A DNA stretch of 64,000 bases from Anaerolineales bacterium (GTDB lineage: Bacteria > Chloroflexota > Anaerolineae > Anaerolineales > UBA11579), in contig CP075526.1 of NCBI GenBank assembly GCA_025808555.1, positions 622,387 through 686,386 on the forward strand. Direction: 5' to 3'. Under the pieces are notes generated by a model. It was not told the origin of the DNA. It made no database searches and saw only the letters and a program-made list of their open reading frames with translations. This document shows positions 1 to 1,839 of this stretch, piece by piece. The position numbers were made by a program, and so were the translations under genes. The first letter of the stretch is position 1. Every line of letters begins with the position of its first letter.

Positions 1-870
1 ATAGATGCGGCGTTTGAAGCCGCCCCACGCGCCCAGCAGCGCACCACCCAGCACAATGCCAAGCCCCCACAGGCCTTGCAACCAGCCGAGCTGGATCACG
101 CCCTGCTCAAAGTGCTGGGTGACCAATAATGGCAACAATGAGATCGCCGGGCTGAAGAGTACATTGATGAGCATGGACATACCCAGCAGCAGCATCAGAC
201 CCGGCCAGGTGATTACATAAGAAAGACCATCGCGAAAATCTGCCCAGAAGCCCGGCTTGGTTTCGGCTTGCGCGGGTACGGGCTGTGGAATACGTACGGG
301 CAGTACCGCCAGAATGGCGATGGTGGCGGTGACAACGTCAATAGCCATCACGCCCTGGGTCGGCAGGAATTCAAGCAGGAAAGCGCCTAGTGGTGCGGCC
401 ACCACGCTGAGCCCGCCGTTGAGCATTTGATTCACACCCTGAATGCGCGGCAGATGCTCCTTCGGCACCATCAATGAAGTGGAGGCGCTGAAGGCTGGGC
501 TGTGGAAGCTTTGGCCCAGCGAGCGCAGGCCGAGCAGCACATAGATATGCCAGATCTGCACTACATCGAGCGCGAAGAGCGCTGCCAGCACCAGGGTGGC
601 GATGGCGATTCCAGCGTCCGACAGGATCATGATGCGCTTGCGCACGCCGCGGTCCACCACGGAGCCGGCGAGGGGGCCAAGCACGATGTTGGGCAGCATG
701 GCCACCAGCGTAGCGGTGGCCAGCACGGTGGCCGAACCTGTTTCACGGGTGAGATACCACACCAGGGCGAACTGCACGAGCTGGCTGCCAAGCAGTGACA
801 GCGCCTGCCCTATCCACACCTGGAAGAATGGGCGCTGCCAACCGGTAGGCTGTGCTTCTGAGTGAATCAT
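1..870 (-). CDS. MFS drug-efflux permease (partial, C-terminus beyond window)
   Basis: About 290 N-terminal residues of a major facilitator of the MefA/DHA3 type, a plasma-membrane proton-coupled exporter. The translation opens MIHSEAQPTGWQRPFFQVWI and continues with GQALSLLGSQLVQFALVWYL as TM1, a family-typical opening. A loop-2/3 motif A equivalent reads GPLAGSVVDRGVRKR. At least seven hydrophobic segments are visible before the window edge. The ATG at 870 has only a weak ribosome site, but it lies 12 nt after the stop of a 13-codon leader ORF that has a strong site, which suggests translational coupling or attenuation. The fold is clear. The drug substrate is inferred only from similarity to macrolide exporters. 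Confidence 0.85.
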   Translation of the reverse strand, partial: MIHSEAQPTGWQRPFFQVWIGQALSLLGSQLVQFALVWYLTRETGSATVLATATLVAMLPNIVLGPLAGSVVDRGVRKRIMILSDAGIAIATLVLAALFALDVVQIWHIYVLLGLRSLGQSFHSPAFSASTSLMVPKEHLPRIQGVNQMLNGGLSVVAAPLGAFLLEFLPTQGVMAIDVVTATIAILAVLPVRIPQPVPAQAETKPGFWADFRDGLSYVITWPGLMLLLGMSMLINVLFSPAISLLPLLVTQHFEQGVIQLGWLQGLWGLGIVLGGALLGAWGGFKRRIY

Positions 871-882
871 TAAGCCTAAGCT

Positions 883-924
883 CTAGAAAAAGAATTTGAA
901 ACGAGAAAGAAAAGAAATAAACAT
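883..924 (-). CDS. Candidate 13-aa leader peptide upstream of the MFS gene
   Basis: A short ORF encodes MFISFLSRFKFFF. A perfect AAGGAG at 931-936 sits 6 nt before its ATG, and its stop (TAG, 883-885) is 12 nt before the MFS start codon. It begins about 16 nt after the predicted transcription start. The R-F-K triplet at residues 8-10 matches the basic-X-basic motif known from macrolide-arrest leader peptides such as ErmDL. What is seen: ORF, ribosome site and promoter. What is inferred: drug-dependent ribosome stalling that controls the efflux gene. No long competing hairpin is obvious; only a 5-bp CTAAG/CTTAG pairing flanks the ORF. Confidence 0.6.
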   Translation of the reverse strand: MFISFLSRFKFFF

Positions 925-946
925 TTTAAGCTCCTTAGTTGCAAGA

Positions 947-975
947 ATAATAAACTTTGATTTAGATTTTGTCAA
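947..975 (-). promoter_or_regulatory. Consensus sigma-70 promoter for leader peptide and MFS gene
   Basis: On the minus strand TTGACA (970-975), a 17-bp spacer and TATTAT (947-952). The predicted start is near 940, just before the leader-peptide ribosome site. This is among the closest matches to consensus in the window. Confidence 0.75.
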
Positions 976-1047: not shown

Positions 1048-1839
1048 ATGACTGACACAAAAATCCCCCCTCTGCACGTCCAGATCAGCGGTTCAGGCAC
1101 CCCTGTGCTGCTCATCCATGGCTTCCCGTTCACCAGCCGCATGTGGCAGCCCCAGCTCAGCGGGCTGGCGGATACCGCCCAGATCCTGGCGCCTGACCTG
1201 CCGGGCTTCGGCAGCAGCCCGGCTGCGCCCGAGGCGCAAGCCTCGGTTGATGAGTTGGCGCATGCCTGCATGGCCGTGCTGGATGCCCAGGGCATTACCG
1301 GCCCAGCCGTCATCGGCGGGCTTTCGATGGGCGGCTATATCGCCCTGGCGATCGCCCGCCTATACCCCGAACGGCTGCGAGGCCTGATGCTGCTCTCCAC
1401 CCGCGCCGGGGCCGATGGCGCCGAGGCCAAGGCCAACCGTGACAAGGCGATCGCCACCGCTCGCGAACAGGGTCCTGCCCCCGCTGGCGAAGGCATGTTC
1501 CCCAAATTGCTGGCCCCCGCAAACTACGAAGCCCAGCCGCAAACCGCCGAGGAGCTCAAGGCCATCATGGCTGGAGCCACCACCGAGGGCGTAGTGATGG
1601 CACTGACCGCCATGCGCGACCGCCCGGATTCGACCCCGCTGTTGAGCCAGATCAGCGCGCCTACGCTGGTGGTGCACGGCGAGGAAGATCAGGTGATTCC
1701 CAAGAGCGAAGCGGAGGGGATGGCGGCTGCCATCCCCAATAGCCAGCTGCATTTGATCCCTCAAGCCGGGCATGTGCCGAACTTGGAACAAGCGGAGAAG
1801 TTCAATGAGGTAGTCGCTGCTTTCCTTGGCAGCCTGTAA
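1048..1839 (+). CDS. Alpha/beta hydrolase, 3-oxoadipate enol-lactonase-like
   Basis: A 263-residue cytoplasmic serine hydrolase. The oxyanion segment HGFPF is at about residues 24-28. The nucleophile elbow GLSMGG places Ser93 as nucleophile. The acid residue is probably in HGEEDQVIP near the C-terminus, and the catalytic His is in AGHVPNLEQ. There is no signal peptide or membrane segment. It is nearest in pattern to the enol-lactonase/MhpC group, but no catabolic neighbours support a specific substrate, so only hydrolase is claimed. It is divergent from the MFS gene and probably monocistronic. Confidence 0.85.
   Translation: MTDTKIPPLHVQISGSGTPVLLIHGFPFTSRMWQPQLSGLADTAQILAPDLPGFGSSPAAPEAQASVDELAHACMAVLDAQGITGPAVIGGLSMGGYIALAIARLYPERLRGLMLLSTRAGADGAEAKANRDKAIATAREQGPAPAGEGMFPKLLAPANYEAQPQTAEELKAIMAGATTEGVVMALTAMRDRPDSTPLLSQISAPTLVVHGEEDQVIPKSEAEGMAAAIPNSQLHLIPQAGHVPNLEQAEKFNEVVAAFLGSL

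Follow-up and report, generated by a model that had tools for sequence, protein, structure and literature searches.

A conserved 13-codon leader ahead of an MFS transporter gene in an Anaerolineales genus: a candidate coupling upstream ORF

The leader and its transporter gene

The window, a stretch of 64,000 nucleotides from an Anaerolineales genome (contig CP075526.1), opens within an MFS transporter gene which is read on the minus strand and preceded by a promoter and a very short reading frame, arranged as follows.

970 to 975, minus strand: -35 hexamer TTGACA, common to all nine leader-bearing genomes
947 to 952, minus strand: -10 hexamer TATTAT, with a 17-nt spacer from the -35
931 to 936, minus strand: leader Shine-Dalgarno (SD) AAGGAG, 6 nt from the leader ATG, invariant in nine genomes, -7.4 kcal/mol
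883 to 924, minus strand: leader ORF MFISFLSRFKFFF, 13 codons and a TAG stop
871 to 882, minus strand: spacer agcttaggctta, 12 nt; across the genus its length ranges from -1 to +15 nt and its sequence is also variable
868 to 870, minus strand: MFS start ATG
1 to 870, minus strand: 5' part of an MFS_1/MFS_3 transporter gene, running off the window, the first of two tandem paralogues

The promoter (TTGACA-17-TATTAT) matches the consensus at 11 of 12 positions, and its spacing would place the transcription start near position 940, some 16 nt 5' of the leader ATG, leaving approximately 70 nt of 5' leader ahead of the MFS ATG. The elements described in an earlier note, namely the promoter, the AAGGAG positioned 6 nt before a 13-codon ORF and the 12 nt separating that ORF from the MFS ATG, were all recovered on the minus strand, and the ribosome site of the exporter proved to be as weak as had been claimed (-3.1 kcal/mol, the leader having -7.4). 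The leader codons are ATG TTT ATT TCT TTT CTT TCT CGT TTC AAA TTC TTT TTC TAG (924-883), in which R8-F9-K10 is the candidate basic-x-basic (+x+) motif. Background counts were made over 464 kb of the 2.24-Mb single-contig G000 genome, where the leader was the sole mini-ORF with a full AAGGAG abutting a long ORF. Since [RK]x[RK] lies within 13 codons in 96 of 514 SD-led ATG reading frames of the same DNA (19%), the motif alone is weak evidence; base shuffles of the T-rich leader produced it in 0 of 20,000.

The full-length MFS protein is 425 aa (L077:17979-19256), and the two tandem paralogues are 63% identical across the part compared. Scores against the NCBIfam Mef(A/B/C) models were 254, 229 and 240 bits, all below the respective cut-offs of 675, 800 and 870, and the best plasmid relatives showed ~36-40% identity. 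Judged by these comparisons, the resemblance to MefA noted previously holds at the family level only. PADLOC returned no match. A divergent alpha/beta hydrolase gene (Abhydrolase_1, window 1048-1839, plus strand) has its intergenic region in common with the leader and MFS gene; macrolide esterase models match it weakly, far under their cut-offs, and these matches look generic.

Distribution and evolution of the leader in the genus

The sample comprised 11 genomes of the genus, representing some four or five independent lineages; no others exist, and the public collection offers Anaerolineales MAGs as near relatives (isolates DTUCFX4, ACE_CHL1, ACE_CHL7 and TGS_CHL2). A close relative of the MFS gene is present in all 11, and the leader was found at this locus in nine, in every case with AAGGAG at a spacing of 5-6 nt and in eight with exactly 13 codons. 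The peptide is MFISFLSRFKFFF in G000, G006, G007 and G008, MFISFLSRFRFLF in G001 and MFISLLLRFRFLF in G009 and G010; the leaders of G003 (MFIYLSQFFRFLH) and G002 (44 aa, beginning MFNSSLSSFTFLFQQ) are without the +x+ motif. The conserved short ORF whose presence upstream of orthologous genes had been proposed as a check is thus present in nine of the 11 genomes, but the accompanying basic motif is less constant: Arg-Phe-Arg/Lys occupies codons 8-10 in seven of the nine leaders, the K-to-R change retaining charge, and is absent from G003 and G002.

No SD-led leader lies upstream of the MFS gene in G004 or G005, nor was one seen in the upstream regions of family-level orthologues inspected by eye, those checked having mostly a promoter, a 5' UTR and an SD of their own. 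MYYFLVTYKIY (G004) and MLLEFKNPNL (G013) were rejected as leaders, being neither SD-led nor conserved. A pattern search of 61 genomes found the leader at the genus locus only, together with one mismatched match in G013. The G002 MFS gene (L016), which is the sole close copy in that genome, groups with the second tandem copies, and its leader has lost the usual stop, runs for 44 codons and stops 2 nt short of the MFS ATG; from this grouping it would appear that the first MFS copy was probably lost and the leader kept.

Among the seven closest leaders 19 parsimony changes were counted, of which 15 were at third codon positions (binomial P = 6e-5). Changes per site at the first, second and third codon positions were 0.17, 0.17 and 1.25 for the leader and 0.25, 0.10 and 1.09 for the MFS gene, the latter computed over 150 codons. 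This third-position bias, and a per-site pattern like that of the MFS gene, make it very probable that the leader is translated and that selection acts on its peptide. Within the clade of seven, at any rate, its evolution by this measure resembles that of a coding gene, and its peptide is as strongly conserved as that of the MFS gene. With G003 added the bias was weaker (17 of 30 changes at third positions, P = 0.007), and between G003 and G010 the constraint was not significant (P = 0.12). Between four and six Phe residues are kept across the leaders, six of the 13 residues being Phe in that of the window. On sequence grounds the original observation was right and is stronger than first stated, as the leader is both conserved and constrained in its peptide. 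The opposing view, that this is an accidental reading frame in a T-rich, unstructured 5' UTR, agrees with a leader which is T-rich and mostly unpaired in folds, but the SD and length are invariant, substitutions are biased to third positions and the ORF is conserved in the genus in both frame and peptide; an unrelated short ORF, offered previously as an alternative, is therefore disfavoured and seems to us highly improbable.

Ribosome sites and proposed coupling to the transporter gene

The duplex of the leader SD with the 16S tail has an energy of -7.4 to -8.0 kcal/mol in the nine leaders, whereas the MFS start behind it gives +0.6 to -3.3 kcal/mol in eight of the nine; the exception, at -6.2 kcal/mol in G001, comes from an AAGG which is badly placed and too distant. 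Of the leaderless MFS copies from the genus and order (n = 19), 15 have sites of -5 to -9 kcal/mol and four are weak (G009_2, G010_2, G003_2 and G005_2). The distance from leader stop to MFS start in the nine genomes is 12, 15, 14, 14, 15, 3, 3, -1 and 2 nt, comprising a TGATG overlap in G003, 3 nt in G009 and G010, 2 nt in G002 and 12-15 nt in the rest, with the 15 nt of G006 counted to the homologous ATG in place of an upstream TTG chosen by the script.

A strong SD on the upstream ORF (uORF), a stop near the next start and a weak or absent downstream ribosome site are the marks of a coupling uORF, under which the leader is, by its layout, best filed. Coupling had been named earlier as an alternative and is the one that fits best; we consider it reasonably probable, though by no means assured, that the leader delivers ribosomes by termination-reinitiation to the first of the two tandem MFS genes. 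Ribosomes would load at the consensus SD and translate the 13 codons; having terminated at a distance of -1 to +15 nt, they would reinitiate at the MFS start, since usable SD sequence is scarce or lacking at the MFS gene itself. Translation of the leader, dependence of the MFS gene upon it and reinitiation are what we infer from this arrangement. Several points count against this reading. Gaps of 12-15 nt, as found in the clade of the window, are at the long end of the coupling range and longer than the overlaps that give the best coupling; in the six gene pairs of one study reinitiation fell steeply with distance and was almost abolished at ~20 nt (PMC10666635), while another study, cited in PMC12548453, reported little effect on coupling up to +25 nt. 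In addition, some of the MFS copies without a leader also have weak SDs (the four listed above), the sample of 11 genomes amounts to only four or five independent lineages, and coupling does not need conservation of amino acids.

Upstream ORFs which deliver ribosomes to the next gene have been named in a recent review (PMC12548453), and among known examples the one nearest in layout would be the short uORF ORF27, coupled to iraD in Escherichia coli (PMC5574718). In common with ORF27-iraD and with engineered bicistronic designs, the leader is an SD-led mini-ORF whose stop falls at the next gene's start or close to it; the need of the downstream gene for the mini-ORF, a property of coupling uORF systems, is here predicted. 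The two differ in that iraD has its own SD inside a hairpin and a start overlapped by the ORF27 stop (PMC5574718), whereas the present locus combines a gap of variable length (-1 to +15 nt) with a weak or missing MFS SD and a conserved peptide. Elsewhere, on the minus strand of L080 (~16516 of the reverse complement), an SD-led ORF of 30 codons with a hydrophobic product (MTVDPALVVFVTILICCIVFPIIELWRMGR) stops directly ahead (0 nt) of an ORF of 727 aa and is another candidate for a coupled small membrane protein.

The conserved peptide and the proposed macrolide switch

The conserved peptide is not explained by coupling alone, and its most likely role would be to slow or arrest the ribosome as a nascent chain, thereby lowering coupling rather than inducing it. 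Under such a scheme the peptide, whether in response to a drug or metabolite or constitutively, would set the flow of ribosomes to the MFS gene, and stalling would reduce exporter output instead of increasing it, or would work by way of mRNA stability. The geometry of coupling is present and a constraint equal to that of the MFS gene acts on a chain too short to exit the tunnel. Against this, beyond +x+ there is no match to known arrest sequences, nothing points to a ligand, and the G003 versus G010 comparison fell short of significance. We regard modulation of this kind as unlikely on balance but worth entertaining, possibly in a drug-sensitive form, since coupling alone leaves the conserved amino acids unexplained.

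A more specific proposal, made in the earlier note, is that R-F-K is a macrolide arrest motif and the leader a drug-induced switch: drug-bound ribosomes would arrest at R8-F9-K10 and so raise exporter expression, whether through release of the MFS start, antitermination or mRNA stabilisation. The motif stands to the extent that R-x-[RK] is kept in most leaders, and is weakened by its loss from G003 and G002 and by its 19% background. The peptide is under selection, the MFS is distantly Mef-like, and a nascent chain of nine residues is within the range of ErmDL and MefAL (MTHSMRLRFPTLNQ and MTASMRLR; PMC10314930). The 23S rRNA of G000 (L076, C1:1423499-1426469) has A2058 and A2059 intact. It also carries A2057 (GACAAAAAGACCCC) and U2611 (GGTCTCTATC), a matching pair; A2057 can reduce sensitivity to 14-membered macrolides in some bacteria. 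With A2058 and A2059 intact, alongside A2057 and U2611, nothing obvious marks the ribosome as macrolide-blind.

The known leaders provide a useful yardstick. In mef(A)/mef(E), MTASMRLR lies within a region of 327 nt that includes a Rho-independent terminator (PMC4335068, PMC10314930). The present locus resembles these in having a short SD-led ORF with a basic-x-basic motif ahead of a broadly Mef-like MFS exporter, a candidate resistance gene, but differs in its peptide, in an exporter scoring under the Mef cut-offs, in a motif which is not universal and in having neither a terminator nor a long structured 5' region. As in ErmDL-type leaders (MTHSMRLRFPTLNQ), the position of +x+ would put 7-9 residues in the tunnel at the putative arrest, with the differences that there is no erm gene, there are no alternative hairpins and other residues precede the motif, a context on which arrest depends (PMC8298421). 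When arrest occurs at +x+, x occupies the P site and the second basic residue is the next to enter the A site; not all such motifs arrest, the preceding residues being decisive, and +x+ is thus insufficient by itself (PMC8298421).

No terminator-like site was found on the minus strand at 780-1000, between the promoter and the MFS gene, which removes transcription attenuation and likewise a Phe-starvation attenuator, as might have been suggested by the Phe content. In the minimum free energy fold of G000, UAGGCU before the MFS ATG pairs with AGCCUA within the gene, but this fold was found in 0 of the other eight leader sequences and no structure was common to the nine (the G003 sequence was folded with one extra duplicated A at the overlap); with a spacer of at most 15 nt, translational attenuation was also rejected, as was a leader-MFS fusion by readthrough or frameshift, given that both frame 0 and frame 2 are represented, as are all three stop codons. 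An RBS-hiding hairpin of the mef/erm kind is accordingly not shared among the leaders, and the ~70 nt here offer no attenuator space comparable with the 327-nt mef(E) attenuator region. If the leading edge of a ribosome is taken as ~16 nt ahead, that edge would be at the stop codon of the leader when codon 9 is in the P site. A ribosome halted at Phe9/Lys10 would lie beyond the leader SD but short of the MFS start, holding back its coupled followers. It could not free a hairpin or terminator, since none is conserved, and as it would keep followers from the MFS start the expected sign is down, although an effect through mRNA stability is possible. A macrolide-triggered ON switch is therefore not supported by the anatomy seen in these sequences, and we judge a macrolide-sensing leader of this type to be very unlikely. 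A drug-responsive arrest peptide gating termination-reinitiation into an exporter gene, with neither hairpin nor terminator, in an uncultured member of the Chloroflexota, is distinctly unlikely as well.

A +x+ motif ahead of an exporter is, on this result, insufficient to infer macrolide induction. If the peptide does tune reinitiation, it would represent a compact regulatory design which dispenses with RNA switches. Judging from literature titles, leader peptides of the Chloroflexota are little studied, and the leader described here offers a clear case, found in nature, of a candidate mini-ORF for ribosome delivery.
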